From: Phycisphaeraceae bacterium
GTDB lineage: Bacteria > Planctomycetota > Phycisphaerae > Phycisphaerales > Phycisphaeraceae
NCBI GenBank assembly: GCA_020849625.1
Contig: JADLFV010000050.1
Coordinates: forward strand, 1-64,000
Length of the DNA stretch: 64,000 nucleotides
Reading direction: 5' to 3'
Under the pieces are notes generated by a model, which was not told where the DNA came from, searched no databases, and saw nothing but the letters and a program-made list of their open reading frames with translations. Of this stretch, positions 21,881 through 30,452 are shown one piece after another; position 1 is the first letter of the stretch, and every line of letters begins with the position of its first letter. A program made the translations under genes and the position numbers.

Positions 21881-22483
21881 CACGACGGCGGCCGCCTTGA
21901 TCAGATGCGGGCGCCAGGTGCAGGGCTGGCTGCGGCGCAGCGCCCGGGGCAACCGATGATGGCGCCGCGCGGCGTTGAACAGGTTGTAGGCGGCGGTGTG
22001 CGGCAGAAAGCGGAAGAAGTTGGCCACGACGCGATGGCAACTAATACGGATTCCATATGTAACTTGTGCGTCCATTCTCCTGTTAGCCCCGGGCTTTGCC
22101 CGGGGATACCCCCGGCAGAGCCGGGGGCTAATGGTGAGGATCGCACGAGGATTTATCGTGATCCGTATTAGCCGGTCCATGAGCAGGCCATTTTTGAGTT
22201 CATCCATGCGCTGATCGCTTTCGCCGCGCCGGATGTCATCGCCGTTCTGGCGTTGGCCGTCAGCGGCGCTGACGATCGTCTCGCCGGGTCGTTCAATCAC
22301 AATGCGGCGCGGATTCGTGCCCTGGGCGTGGCACTCGGCCTTGGCCACCACGGCGCAAGAGCGGTCCCACGATTCAACCTGGTAAGCGAAGCACAGGAAC
22401 CGGCGCTTTTTCTGCCCGGTGGCTTCGTACTGCTTGACCGCCTGCTTCATCAGGGCGGCGGCTATCTGATTGATCCGCTCGTT
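21860..22483 (-). pseudogene. IS1380-family transposase C-terminal remnant
   Basis: Reading right to left, about 165 transposase codons remain. The first part contains RFLCFAYQVESWDRSCAVVAKAE, then NPRRIVIERPGETI and ESDQRMDELKNGLLMDRL. After the MITE-like insertion it resumes as SCHRVVANFFRFLPHTAAYN, AQP-like SQPCTWRPHLIKAAAVVIQTTRR. The 'R-(L)SCHR-xxANxFR-xLxxxAAYxL' block is characteristic of IS1380 DDE transposases. The N-terminal half is absent, replaced at 22486 by a composite repeat. The C-terminus abuts the RAYT-like fragment. The reading frame stays open across the insertion by coincidence. Confidence 0.7.
22041..22171. mobile_element. 131-bp MITE-like element inside the IS1380 remnant
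   Basis: The perfect 11-base terminal inverted repeats CTAATACGGAT (22041-22051) and ATCCGTATTAG (22161-22171) bound a non-coding insert. The insert splits the conserved Arg-Leu / Ser-Cys-His-Arg block of the transposase. The middle holds two GC-rich hairpins, TTAGCCCCGGGCTTTGCCC... and ...CCCCCGGCAGAGCCGGGGG, arranged head to head. The ends allow a TA target duplication, but restoring the reading frame would then need one extra base, so the target site is unresolved. Confidence 0.75.
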
Positions 22484-22485
22484 GA

Positions 22486-22643
22486 CCGCCAAGACGCCAA
22501 GAGCGCCAAGATAAATGGCCAGAATTATGTAACCACAGATTGCGCAGATGACGCAAATTAAGAGGGTCTGAATCTGCGTAATCCGTGAAATCTGCGGTTC
22601 CTGTCTTGTTGCTTCCTTGGCGCTCTTGGCGTCTTGGCGGTTC
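22486..22643. repeat. Composite dispersed repeat, locus A
   Basis: The outer arms CCGCCAAGACGCCAAGAGCG (from 22488) and CTTGGCGCTCTTGGCGTCTT (from 22616) are reverse complements. The interior shares the segment ATGGCCAGAATTATGTAACC with locus C and an AATCTGCG-rich module with loci C and D. Short reading frames here are repeat-derived. Confidence 0.85.
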
Positions 22644-22684
22644 AATCCGTTTGCCGCTTGAGATGTTGATCCCGCCCCGTTCGA

Positions 22685-24439
22685 TCACTCCGCCGCGCCG
22701 GCGTCGAAGGTGATGCCGTTGCGGTCGAGCAGGGTGCCGGTGGTGCGGTAGAGTTCGGCGATGGCGCTGTTGTAGTCGCGGAGGGCGGCGACTTCCTGGA
22801 TTTCGGCGTCGGCCAGGCGCTGCTGGGTGCTGAGTTTGAGGTCGAGCAGGAATTCGGGGGTCAGGGCGATGCCGGCGGCTTCCTGTTCTTCGATGGCGCG
22901 CAAACTGTCGGCCGCAGCGCGGCGGGCGGCGCGGGCGGAGCCGATCAACTCGTAGTTGGTCCGCACGGTGCGCAGGGCGGTCTTGACCGCCAGCACCACG
23001 TCCTCGGCCAGGCGCTGATAGTCGAGCACGGCCGACTGTCGCTGCAGGCGGGTCTGCTGATACTGAGCCTGCGGGCCGCGGTTGCCGATGGGCATAGAAA
23101 ACCTGGCGCTGAGGATGTAGTCGATGAAGTCGGCCTCGGAGAGATTGTCGTAGGAATCGTCTCCGCTGCCGGTTGACAGGCCGTTGAATCCCACGGCGGC
23201 TGAGAGGGTCAACTCCGGCAGGCGCAAGTTGTCGGCCACGCGCTGACGGACGGAAGCGTCTTTGATGGCCAGGAGGGCCTGCTGCATTTCGGGGCGCTGG
23301 CGGAGGGCGGTGGTCACCGCGTCCAGCAGGTTGAACTGCACGGGGTCTTCCACCGGCGTCTCCACGGGCACGATCAGGGTTTCATCGGCCACGGGCAAGT
23401 CGGGTGCGTTGATGAGGCGCTTGAGTTTGTCGGAGGCGTCGCGCACCAGTTGGCGGGCGCGGATCACATCGCCGCGGCGCAGCTCCACGAAGCTGTTGGC
23501 TTCGGTGATCTGCACGGGGGTGACATCGAAGTCCGCGCGCTTGCTGAGCCGATCGCGGTCATCAACGGTGCGCTCGTGCAGTCGCTTCTGCACCAGCAGT
23601 TGATGGCGGGCGAAGACCAGGTCCCAGTAGGCCTGCTCGGTCTGGGCCAGCAAGTCGAGCAGTTGGCCGCGCAGGGCCTGGGCCTCGCTCTCTCGGGCGC
23701 TGCGAGCCAGGACGATTTCGGCCCGGTTCACGTCGCTGCCGAAGTTGCGCAGCAGCGGCTGAGCGAGGCTGAGGGTGACATCGCTGTCGTAGTAGTGGCT
23801 GACACCGAAGAAGCTGGTCGTGCTGTCGTAGCGGTTGAAGTTGGTGGCCGCCTCGATGCTGCCGCCGCTGATCAGGCGTTTGTTGATGCCGGTGGTGACG
23901 CTGAGGTTTTCATCCTGTTTGTTGCCGCCGACGCCGGGGATGATGCCGGCCGGTTGGGGCGTATCCAATTTCTGCCAGCCGGCCTCGGTGAAGAAGGTGG
24001 CGTCGAAGGCAGCCTCGGCCTGGACGACCTGGCTGTCGGCGATGGCGGGGCGCAAGCGGGCCACGCGCAGGTCCAGGTTGTGCTCCACAGCCAACTGCAT
24101 CACGCGCTGCAGCGACAACTGCACCACGCGCTCGTCCGTGCGGCCCATCAGATCGTCGCCCAGCTCGACCGGCTGATCGGCGTAGGCTGCCAGCCCGCTG
24201 ATGCGATCCAGCTCCGCTCGGCGCTCGTCGGACAATTCCGCTTCCACGTCCGAGGGCTCGCGGTTCAGTTCGACCGTGGGGGCATCGGGAATCGCCTGCA
24301 ACTGTCGGCGGTGCGATTCGATCAGCGACTGGCGCAGTTCCTGTTCGGGAGCCATATCCAACGGCCCCCGGCAGCCGCCGACCAATGCGACAGCCGCAGC
24401 CAACATGACATAACGTGCGTGGGTAGTCATGGTGGACAT
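22685..24439 (-). CDS. TolC-family outer membrane efflux lipoprotein
   Basis: This 584-residue precursor has a lipoprotein signal (MTTHARYVMLAAAVALVGGC, lipobox LVGGC). It then has two outer-membrane-efflux repeats, with long heptad helices (LARSARESEAQALRGQLLDLLAQTEQAYWDLVFARHQLLVQ; AARRAAADSLRAIEEQEAAGIALTPEFLLDLKLSTQQRLADAE). This is the architecture of the outer-membrane partner of tripartite exporters. No inner-membrane or adaptor gene is adjacent, so the substrate is unknown. The start may be 24439 or 24430. A region of about 100 residues between the lipobox and the first repeat is unusually long. Confidence 0.85.
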   Translation of the reverse strand: MSTMTTHARYVMLAAAVALVGGCRGPLDMAPEQELRQSLIESHRRQLQAIPDAPTVELNREPSDVEAELSDERRAELDRISGLAAYADQPVELGDDLMGRTDERVVQLSLQRVMQLAVEHNLDLRVARLRPAIADSQVVQAEAAFDATFFTEAGWQKLDTPQPAGIIPGVGGNKQDENLSVTTGINKRLISGGSIEAATNFNRYDSTTSFFGVSHYYDSDVTLSLAQPLLRNFGSDVNRAEIVLARSARESEAQALRGQLLDLLAQTEQAYWDLVFARHQLLVQKRLHERTVDDRDRLSKRADFDVTPVQITEANSFVELRRGDVIRARQLVRDASDKLKRLINAPDLPVADETLIVPVETPVEDPVQFNLLDAVTTALRQRPEMQQALLAIKDASVRQRVADNLRLPELTLSAAVGFNGLSTGSGDDSYDNLSEADFIDYILSARFSMPIGNRGPQAQYQQTRLQRQSAVLDYQRLAEDVVLAVKTALRTVRTNYELIGSARAARRAAADSLRAIEEQEAAGIALTPEFLLDLKLSTQQRLADAEIQEVAALRDYNSAIAELYRTTGTLLDRNGITFDAGAAE

Positions 24440-26578: not shown

Positions 26579-26670
26579 TCCCCCTTGACGTAACTCATGA
26601 AATCGCAAGAATCTGGACGATAAAGAGGCTTGTTCTGAACCACCCCACATGAGTGGACGTAAGAAAACAG

Positions 26671-27498
26671 ATGCCGCGGGATCTACCAGACTACAATCAT
26701 CCGCCACTTGTCGAGGTTGTTCTTTCGGTGCAATTCGATGAGTTGATCGAGTTTTCTCTGCCACATTTTGGATTACTTTGGCAGAAAAAGTACAGATCAC
26801 AATTCCCACGGACAGAAATTCACCCACCCCTTAATATCTCCACAGAGCGATTTGGTGTACGAAGTTCATCCCGTCCTGTAGTCAAGCTGGAGATGCTTGA
26901 ACCCCCCCCGTTGCCGCGTTTATGGATGCTAAATGACGAATCAGGAGGGCTTATCCAGATACAAACCAACCGTATCGCCTACAACTGGCGCAAGACCCGT
27001 GGGGAATATCCGCACTATGAGACGATTCGGCCAAAATTTGAACTAGCCTTGCGTGAGTTCTGCTCCTTCGTAGAGGAAGAAAACCTAGGCAACGTCACAC
27101 CCAACCAATGTGAAATCACGTATGTAAATCATATTGAACGACATGGCGTTTGGGAGCACCACGGCCAGGTGGAAAAGGTATTCAACTTTTGGTCGCACAG
27201 TCAACACGCAACCGGTCTACCGAACACCCCCGAGAACGTAACGTTCTCAATTAACTATATTCTGCCCTCTCCCACAGGTATTCCCCGGGGGCGGCTTCAC
27301 GTCTCAATGAAGCCCGTGTTCACACGCGACAATGCTGAGCCACTGTTCGAGTTGAAACTTACGGTTAGAGGGTATCCAGGCGACCAATCGCCGCGGGATT
27401 GCCTTGATTTCATGGACCAAGGACACAATTCTATTGTCAGGGGATTTACGGCTATTACCACGCCGGCAATGCACGACGCATGGGGAAGAAAACAATGA
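26671..27498 (+). CDS. TIGR04255-family protein, first gene of a three-gene cassette
   Basis: This 275-residue protein opens with MPRDLPDYNHPPLVEVVLSV and has the spaced motifs of the sporadically distributed TIGR04255 family: a PPLVEV start, GGLIQIQTNRIAYNWR, and ...CEITYVNHIE in the middle. The family has no established function. No membrane segment or known catalytic motif is seen. The DNA is markedly AT-richer than the flanking genes, which suggests recent transfer. An in-frame GTG at 26653 is an alternative start. The stop overlaps the next start (ATGA), so the first two genes are translationally coupled. Confidence 0.8.
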   Translation: MPRDLPDYNHPPLVEVVLSVQFDELIEFSLPHFGLLWQKKYRSQFPRTEIHPPLNISTERFGVRSSSRPVVKLEMLEPPPLPRLWMLNDESGGLIQIQTNRIAYNWRKTRGEYPHYETIRPKFELALREFCSFVEEENLGNVTPNQCEITYVNHIERHGVWEHHGQVEKVFNFWSHSQHATGLPNTPENVTFSINYILPSPTGIPRGRLHVSMKPVFTRDNAEPLFELKLTVRGYPGDQSPRDCLDFMDQGHNSIVRGFTAITTPAMHDAWGRKQ

Positions 27499-28046
27499 CA
27501 ACTACATCGTCAGTAGAATCCCCAATCCTAGATCAACTTACCGAGAAAGATGTTACCCCCGCGCCACCCCCGCTTCACGAGAGTGAAAGTGACCTAATAA
27601 TTGATCGCCGGAGTATCTATTATTATCAAGAACCAAATACTCTTAAAGGATCTGTCGTTATTGCTTCTGGCCAAGGCTCTCCTCCTGTGTGGTTAGAATC
27701 GGTTTTCAAGAACCTTGCTTCCATTGCGAAGCTACCTACCAATTGGGATAGCTACGGCGCAAAGAAGATATCACGTGACGTAATGCGTGAGTCGCTTCTT
27801 GTGCTTTTAGAACTTGGCCCCGACGGTCTCCCTACGCCCTCTGTTGTTCCCACAAGCAATGGAGATATTCAACTCGAGTGGCATGAACTGGGTATCGATA
27901 TGGAAATTGAGATAAAGCCCTACGGGCCTTCGCATATTTACTTTCGGGACTCCGCCACAAATATAGAGGAAGATCTTGAGCTAAAAGGTGATGTTACTGG
28001 CTTGGGCAATCGCCTCCGCGATCTTGCTCGTAGGAGTAGGGGTTGA
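27495..28046 (+). CDS. Uncharacterised protein, second gene of the TIGR04255 cassette
   Basis: This 183-residue soluble protein has no recognised domain. A low-complexity N-terminus leads to a recognisable core: ...SIAKLPTNWDSYGAKKISRD, then VVPTSNGDIQLEWHELGIDMEIEI, a pattern recalled from small proteins beside TIGR04255 genes. The ATG at 27495 overlaps the previous stop by 4 bases and has GGGGAAG about 8 nt upstream. The AT-rich composition is shared with both neighbours. Antitoxin, immunity or adaptor roles are conceivable, but nothing in the sequence decides. Confidence 0.7.
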   Translation: MTTTSSVESPILDQLTEKDVTPAPPPLHESESDLIIDRRSIYYYQEPNTLKGSVVIASGQGSPPVWLESVFKNLASIAKLPTNWDSYGAKKISRDVMRESLLVLLELGPDGLPTPSVVPTSNGDIQLEWHELGIDMEIEIKPYGPSHIYFRDSATNIEEDLELKGDVTGLGNRLRDLARRSRG

Positions 28047-28062
28047 TCCGGGAGAACTGCCT

Positions 28063-28470
28063 GTGGTTTCGTACCAGGACGATCCAACTGTCAAGGATGG
28101 CTGGGATCTGTGGCGTAGGATCAGGCCAGAATGGTGGGTTCCAGATAAAAACATTGGCAGAATGAAGGTTTCATCTGCCGCCTTCACCGATTCAAGCGAT
28201 GGCAGTGGCATGTCGGTGCATCTTGCTGAATTGGTACGAAACTCGGGAGGCGACGAGCGAGATGTTTTGGCCAATTATGCTGGTTGTGGACTCGCTTCCT
28301 TCAAAGCAAGTGTTGCGCGTAAACATGGACAAGGCATTTACCGGCATCCTCGGCCTGAGGATCCCTCTCATGCAGAAGTATTCGGTCCCAAACCTCGATC
28401 TGTACAAAGAGCCTTGGCGAAAGAATGCGTCGTGTTGATCGAACCCGGCCCACCTCTTCAGACAGAGTAA
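28063..28470 (+). CDS. Uncharacterised protein, third gene of the TIGR04255 cassette
   Basis: About 135 residues. Clear family-like blocks are LWRRIRPEWWVPD, MKVSSAAFTDSSDGSGMSVH, LANYAGCGLASFKASVARKHGQGI, and a C-terminal DPSHAEVFGPKPRSVQRALAKE. Conserved-looking Ser, Asp, His and Arg residues hint at an enzyme or nucleic-acid-binding fold, but no family name can be given. The GTG at 28063 has GGGAG 8 nt upstream and sits 17 nt after the preceding stop. An ATG at 27991 would add a hydrophobic stretch that is probably only the shadow of the overlapping gene. Confidence 0.65.
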   Translation: MVSYQDDPTVKDGWDLWRRIRPEWWVPDKNIGRMKVSSAAFTDSSDGSGMSVHLAELVRNSGGDERDVLANYAGCGLASFKASVARKHGQGIYRHPRPEDPSHAEVFGPKPRSVQRALAKECVVLIEPGPPLQTE

Positions 28471-29162: not shown

Positions 29163-29170
29163 CAGAGGTT

Positions 29171-29335
29171 GAACCGCCAGGACGCCAGGAGCGCCAAGAA
29201 ATACATCAAGCAAAGAAATAGCCGCAAAAAGTCGCAGAAGTCGCAAATAGAAAATAGATGTCGGGGGCATCCTTTTTGCGCCTCTTGCGCCTTTTTGCGG
29301 TCAAATCCTTGGCGCTCTTGGCGTCTTGGCGGTTC
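29171..29335. repeat. Composite dispersed repeat, locus B
   Basis: The outer arms GAACCGCCAGGACGCCAGGA (29171) and CTTGGCGCTCTTGGCGTCTT (29308) are the same family as loci A and C. The interior differs, containing a smaller palindromic pair GCCGCAAAAAGTCGCAGAAG / TTTGCGCCTCTTGCGCCTTT. Confidence 0.85.
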
Positions 29336-30265: not shown

Positions 30266-30295
30266 GCGAGCATTCTAACCAACTGGACAGAAGTT

Positions 30296-30452
30296 GAACC
30301 GCCAAGACGCCAAGAGCGCCAAGATCAATGGCCAGAATTATGTAACCATAGATTGCGCTGATGACGCAGATGAAGACGGTTTGAATCTGCGCAATCTGTG
30401 TAATCTGCGGTTCCTGCATTCCTTCTTGGCGATCTTGGCGTCTTGGCGGTTT
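30296..30452. repeat. Composite dispersed repeat, locus C
   Basis: The outer arms GAACCGCCAAGACGCCAAGA (30296) and CTTGGCGATCTTGGCGTCTT (30425) flank an interior close to locus A, sharing ATGGCCAGAATTATGTAACC. The right arm runs into the stop codon of the substrate-binding-protein gene. Confidence 0.85.

Follow-up and report, generated by a model that had tools for sequence, protein, structure and literature searches.

What is the biological role of the three tightly packed genes found at positions 26671–28470 of a 64,000-nucleotide stretch of DNA from a Phycisphaeraceae bacterium (contig JADLFV010000050.1 of assembly GCA_020849625.1, positions 1–64,000; the whole stretch is referred to as the window)? 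The first gene, p1, encodes a member of the TIGR04255 family, whereas the second and the third, p2 and p3, encode proteins with no match in Pfam or NCBIfam. We propose, with a probability of roughly 0.63, that the cassette is one mobile tripartite toxin–antitoxin module, with p3 as a toxin of the ADP-ribosyltransferase (ART) fold, p2 as its dedicated antitoxin and the TIGR04255 protein as a constant third component. The proposal builds on a gene set that is fixed and has spread horizontally and on the predicted fold of p3, as well as on the combination of p2–p3 with other first components, the combination of TIGR04255 with toxins of other types and an excess of broken p3 genes. From these observations we infer that p3 is toxic and that p2 neutralises it, as well as what p1 does and what triggers it.

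Gene arrangement and distribution

The three open reading frames are intact and occupy the forward strand at 26671–27498 (p1, 275 amino acids), 27495–28046 (p2, 183 amino acids) and 28063–28470 (p3, 135 amino acids). The start of p1 is the ATG at 26671, with an in-frame GTG at 26653; its stop shares an ATGA overlap with the start of p2, and p3 starts with the GTG at 28063. An earlier reading made from the nucleotide letters alone (hereafter the sequence-only reading) had described three tightly packed same-strand genes, AT-richer than their surroundings and headed by a TIGR04255 gene. All of this is borne out, the GC content being 0.46–0.53 in the cassette as against 0.60–0.68 in the flanking genes on both sides, and only the gap between p2 and p3 has to be corrected, from 17 nt to 16 nt. 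The source genome holds a single TIGR04255 gene.

A p1 profile built from cassette-linked p1 proteins retrieved 80 loci when each species was represented by a single genome. The genes p2 and p3 come after p1, in constant order, in 77 of the 80 contigs, a figure that applies to the cassette-linked p1 subgroup and not to TIGR04255 at large; of the other three, one runs into the contig end, one keeps p2 with a remnant of p3 and one has p1 by itself. An arrangement that recurs so regularly in contigs retrieved with p1 only goes far beyond what chance would produce, and p1, p2 and p3 form a real unit. Genes outside this unit are seldom coupled to it, a co-directional neighbour within 60 nt being present in 9 of 73 cases upstream and 6 of 73 downstream. 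The loci span Planctomycetota, Acidobacteria, Nitrospira, Proteobacteria, Chloroflexi, Gemmatimonadetes, NC10, Actinobacteria and other groups. Among 294 genomes of the same phylum, 51 carry TIGR04255 loci (67 in total), and p2 followed by p3 stands after TIGR04255 at 25 of them.

Several observations attest to mobility. A plasmid of Mycobacterium paragordonae bears the cassette adjoining a MobF relaxase gene, and two contigs of a viral collection contain it. One of the latter (L212) and a Bryobacterales contig (L149) have in common 2.67 kb at 95% identity, corresponding to the cassette with short margins, while the flanks beyond differ; a similar limit of identity near the cassette ends is seen in the pairs L150/L152 (86%) and L157/L166 (83%). 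Near the end of the segment shared by L212 and L149, downstream of the cassette, there is also a 51-nt imperfect inverted repeat (L212 9848–10376; L149 9850–10366). The DNA of the window cassette was unmatched in 40 near relatives. A clean empty site was not demonstrable, since in relatives the downstream hydrolase gene does not adjoin that for glycogen synthase. Phage genome records gave no match to p1, and plasmid records gave none to the window p3 at E ≤ 1e-3. The cassette is thus a compact, sporadic and mobile operon of the kind expected of a type II toxin–antitoxin system, although the assignment of toxin and antitoxin to its genes is something that we infer. The outcomes that the sequence-only reading had set against itself, namely rare co-occurrence of the three genes or vertically inherited core housekeeping homologues, were not borne out, the gene set being near-constant and present in many phyla and on the Mycobacterium plasmid.

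The predicted toxin

The structural model of p3 is confident (pLDDT 95.3, pTM 0.88) and has the ART fold. Its best Foldseek matches are Tpt1/KptA and AvrPphF ORF2, and the same proteins lead the VIA-align comparison with Z-scores of up to 7.9 and of 7.0, respectively, followed by TreTu (5.4), Tse2 (5.2), DarT (4.8), VPA0770 (4.5) and then bacterial ART toxins, RES (3.7), ParT (3.4) and poly(ADP-ribose) polymerases. Each single Z-score is below the level of trust, and the assignment is made because one superfamily fills the list, down to rank 37, with the exception of a hypothetical Caulobacter structure (2o0p/2o0q). Searches of PDB sequences with the p2 and p3 profiles returned nothing useful, and the model would make p3 an ART-fold family missed by sequence searches. 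In 75 p3 sequences S51 is invariant and R18, F41, R86 and H103 are nearly so; R18 and S51 are consistent with positions one and two of the R-S-E class of ARTs, and H103 may stand in for the glutamate.

Split or truncated genes are concentrated in p3, with 10 of 115 loci affected, compared with 1 of 115 for p2 and 3 of 107 for p1 (Fisher test, p = 0.01 against p2, 0.007 against p1 and p2 together, and 0.035 when only split genes are counted). Such an excess would be a signature of a toxin, since a gene that burdens its host should be the first to break. It also bears on the idea that p3 has no toxicity and processes RNA as an ART-like or Tpt1-like enzyme, in an operon that serves as an accessory unit for metabolism or RNA repair and does not work by addiction. 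That the best structural matches are the RNA 2'-phosphotransferases Tpt1/KptA speaks for it, but the match covers only approximately residues 80–186 of Tpt1, whose N-terminal part is absent from p3, and the broken copies, the constant pairing with p2, the mobility and the toxin partners in other TIGR04255 operons fit addiction better; we consider this possibility very improbable.

The p2–p3 pair and its exchangeable first component

The proposed antitoxin p2 consists of a variable N-terminal stretch of about 70 residues and a conserved C-terminal 'NWDSYGA' domain. The latter matches the C-terminal domain of PDC-M32A, a protein of the PADLOC candidate defence system PDC-M32, at 8e-11 (positions 263–353 of 375), as do all 10 of the 10 p2 relatives scanned. 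In PDC-M32 loci the p2 domain is joined to a different N-terminal domain, and a p3 homologue, PDC-M32B, comes next. The window p3 itself has no PDC-M32B match at E ≤ 1, but its relative in L082 has one at 8e-5, and the p3 profile finds PDC-M32B proteins (L215, 1e-15). A p2–p3-like pair also comes after a small DUF3467-like gene in place of TIGR04255 in L247 (645–1848) and, as judged by eye, similarly in L229 (907–2320). Because the PDC-M32A N-terminal domain or a DUF3467-like gene can replace TIGR04255, p2 and p3 make up a core pair whose first component can be exchanged. The PDC-M32A N-terminal domain additionally occurs without the p2 domain, adjoining a PIN-like gene recognised by eye (L220 695–2103, L230 785–2376), as another exchangeable first component.

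TIGR04255 and its partners

The protein p1 matches TIGR04255 at 8e-18 (65.1 bits against a cut-off of 30) over profile positions 2–252 of 252, and matches no Pfam family at E ≤ 1. Our literature search, which did not extend to subscription journals, found no paper naming the family. The p1 model (pLDDT 94.0, pTM 0.91) is predicted to have a helix-grip fold like that of the TATA-binding protein (TBP), which is the best Foldseek match (E = 2e-4) with low TM-scores of 0.25–0.29, and a QxQ..R...NW motif is nearly invariant. VIA-align gives Z-scores of 6.4 for TBP and of 8–8.8 for phosphagen kinases; a phosphagen kinase-like enzyme was nevertheless set aside, as models that match nothing clearly often reach a Z-score of about 8 and the identity is 5–8%. 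A match of the p1 profile to a mitoribosomal protein in PDB (E = 0.03) was taken as chance.

Where p2 and p3 are missing, TIGR04255 mostly still heads a tight co-directional trio comprising a middle protein and a variable third gene. The third gene encodes a PIN protein (L129, L127, L106, L112, L101, L102), PemK/MazF (L123), a HicA-like protein (L103, by eye), a metallo-beta-lactamase (L074), a DUF7689 protein (L117, L118, L119, L093), a zeta toxin (a Vibrio plasmid) or a member of an unnamed 'TQ-C-D' family, with the motif TQ(D/T/A)CD, which is a candidate new effector family (13 loci: L121, L122, L111, L126, L110, L125, L128, L115, L116, L130, L094, L098, L067). For the PIN, PemK, metallo-beta-lactamase and DUF7689 classes, representatives were verified with Pfam; the other class assignments represent similarity judged by eye. 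Middle proteins of the TQ-C-D loci sometimes have a helix-turn-helix. A hydrophobic N-terminal segment was considered as a property common to all middle proteins but was dropped, p2 and the DUF7689 class being without a strong one. On the TIGR04255 tree, 22 partner changes are needed for 10 partner classes, and the branches marked as supported in this quick tree, for which SH-aLRT values are the only support, force at least four changes for p2–p3, at least three for PIN and at least seven for TQ-C-D. Two further plasmid loci are worth recording: on Rhizobium plasmid pCB3060_2 (L266 2237–7219) a TIGR04255 trio adjoins multiubiquitin, ThiF and DUF6527 genes, and on Crinalium plasmid pCRI9333.03 (L263 4001–5831) TIGR04255 is followed by two unnamed genes of unassigned class, and an HNH endonuclease gene and a DNA methyltransferase gene lie close by.

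A broader idea, to which we give somewhat less than even odds, is that TIGR04255 is a general third component of tripartite toxin–antitoxin systems, a TBP-fold sensor or chaperone exchanged between at least seven unrelated types of third gene (ART, PIN, MazF, HicA-like, zeta, metallo-beta-lactamase, DUF7689 and TQ-C-D) and sensing one common signal, for example phage infection. The same data may be viewed differently, with p1 as a transcriptional regulator of the same toxin–antitoxin pair, comparable to omega of omega-epsilon-zeta or PaaR of paaR-paaA-parE, whose TBP-like saddle would bind operon promoter DNA and set the levels of p2 and p3. In omega-epsilon-zeta the regulator gene comes first; p1 likewise is always the first gene, its predicted fold is TBP-like, and one TIGR04255 operon does end in a zeta toxin. 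But a second regulator would be redundant in the class whose middle protein has its own helix-turn-helix, the fusion of a first component to the p2 domain in PDC-M32A points to protein contact, and the TM-scores to TBP are low, so a regulatory p1 appears rather unlikely.

A proposed tripartite toxin–antitoxin mechanism

In the mechanism that we favour, p3 would be an ART-fold enzyme, probably using NAD+, that modifies an essential cell molecule, and the conserved C-terminal domain of p2 would keep it inactive. The long variable N-terminal part would make p2 labile, and p1 would act on p2, most probably by maintaining its fold or its stability, as SecB does in toxin–antitoxin–chaperone (TAC) systems and in CmdTAC. 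Once titrated by a signal, perhaps a phage product, p1 would let p2 go.

Several points weigh against this proposal. The Foldseek E-values for p3 are weak (0.097 at best), and its Z-scores are all below 8, a range in which chance arrangements arise. No glutamate is near-invariant in the 75 p3 sequences, unlike the catalytic third glutamate of most ARTs, so that ART activity is not assured. Part of the p3 breaks may be assembly errors, though these should strike all three genes. Middle proteins of the PIN and TQ-C-D classes show a hydrophobic N-terminal segment to which p2 has no clear counterpart (mean maximum hydropathy 0.9). Finally, p1 resembles TBP and not SecB, which leaves its chaperone role a matter of analogy; SecB is not among the structural matches listed for p1, which does not exclude a SecB likeness.

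Genomic neighbourhood and phage defence

The sequence-only reading had envisaged a compact module of sporadic spread and foreign composition, either defensive or toxin–antitoxin-like, and had named a neighbourhood in defence islands as something to check. The view of a compact, mobile, toxin–antitoxin-like module is supported by the fixed gene set, its spread across phyla and onto a plasmid, the predicted fold of p3 and the recognised toxins found with TIGR04255; the defence part was not shown, and clustering in defence islands was not supported. Among 139 neighbouring proteins, considered without a background control, only a few match PADLOC models at 1e-10 (a type III restriction enzyme, PDC-S35, TIR, CapP and PDC-S09), and the Pfam-matched ones shown belong mostly to housekeeping families. 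A phage-defence role of the cassette is possible. In its strict form, abortive infection, p1 would itself detect infection and activate p3, while p2 would be an adaptor and not a classical antitoxin. This form is consistent with the kinship of p2 and p3 to the candidate defence system PDC-M32, which is reported in prophages of S. meliloti (PMC12429752), with CmdTAC as a three-gene ART defence system (PMC11618068) and with the two viral-collection contigs. The housekeeping neighbourhood argues against it, and it overlaps with the toxin–antitoxin module, from which it differs mainly in purpose; we regard it as improbable.

A possible promoter lies upstream of the cassette at 26585–26612 on the forward strand, but the consensus match is weak and not above chance (three promoter-like sites observed against 1.8 expected). 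Outside the cassette, several ORFs on both strands contain a short repeat, interspersed and with the reading 'NRQDAKSAK / PPRRQERQ' (window 22374–22688, 29165–29200 and 30290–30360).

Comparison with known systems

Within TIGR04255, whose function is uncharacterised in NCBIfam, p1 is a member of a low-scoring subgroup tied to p2–p3. The cassette shares with PDC-M32 the p2 domain and the order of p2 before p3, the p3 profile matching PDC-M32B proteins, but it has a TIGR04255 gene where PDC-M32A carries its other N-terminal domain, and p2 accounts for only the C-terminal portion of that protein. The link ties the PADLOC candidate into a wider modular set of p2–p3 systems. DarT, ParT and RES, the ART toxins of toxin–antitoxin modules, resemble p3 in predicted fold; they differ in that p3 has no detected sequence similarity to them and an R18-S51-H103 pattern without a conserved catalytic glutamate, and p2 no detected relation to their antitoxins.

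The closest parallel in logic is offered by the SecB-type TAC systems, in which one chaperone family serves HigBA, HicAB and MqsRA pairs (PMC5105189), and by CmdTAC, in which a phage capsid protein frees the chaperone and an ART toxin is released (PMC11618068). Common to these and the cassette would be a three-gene design with an exchangeable toxin–antitoxin pair and a constant third protein, and in CmdTAC also an ART toxin. The third component of the cassette is, in contrast, a TIGR04255 protein of predicted TBP-like fold where those systems have a SecB homologue, and its gene stands at the head of the operon. A chaperone-addiction region of the C-terminal kind was not identified; in p2 the variable stretch is N-terminal and the conserved domain C-terminal. 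The likeness is one of logic and not of membership. Through toxin–antitoxin operons with exchangeable effectors, the uncharacterised TIGR04255 family gains a testable function, and the analogy suggests that the principle of SecB-type TAC systems may have arisen once more in evolution, on a different fold.
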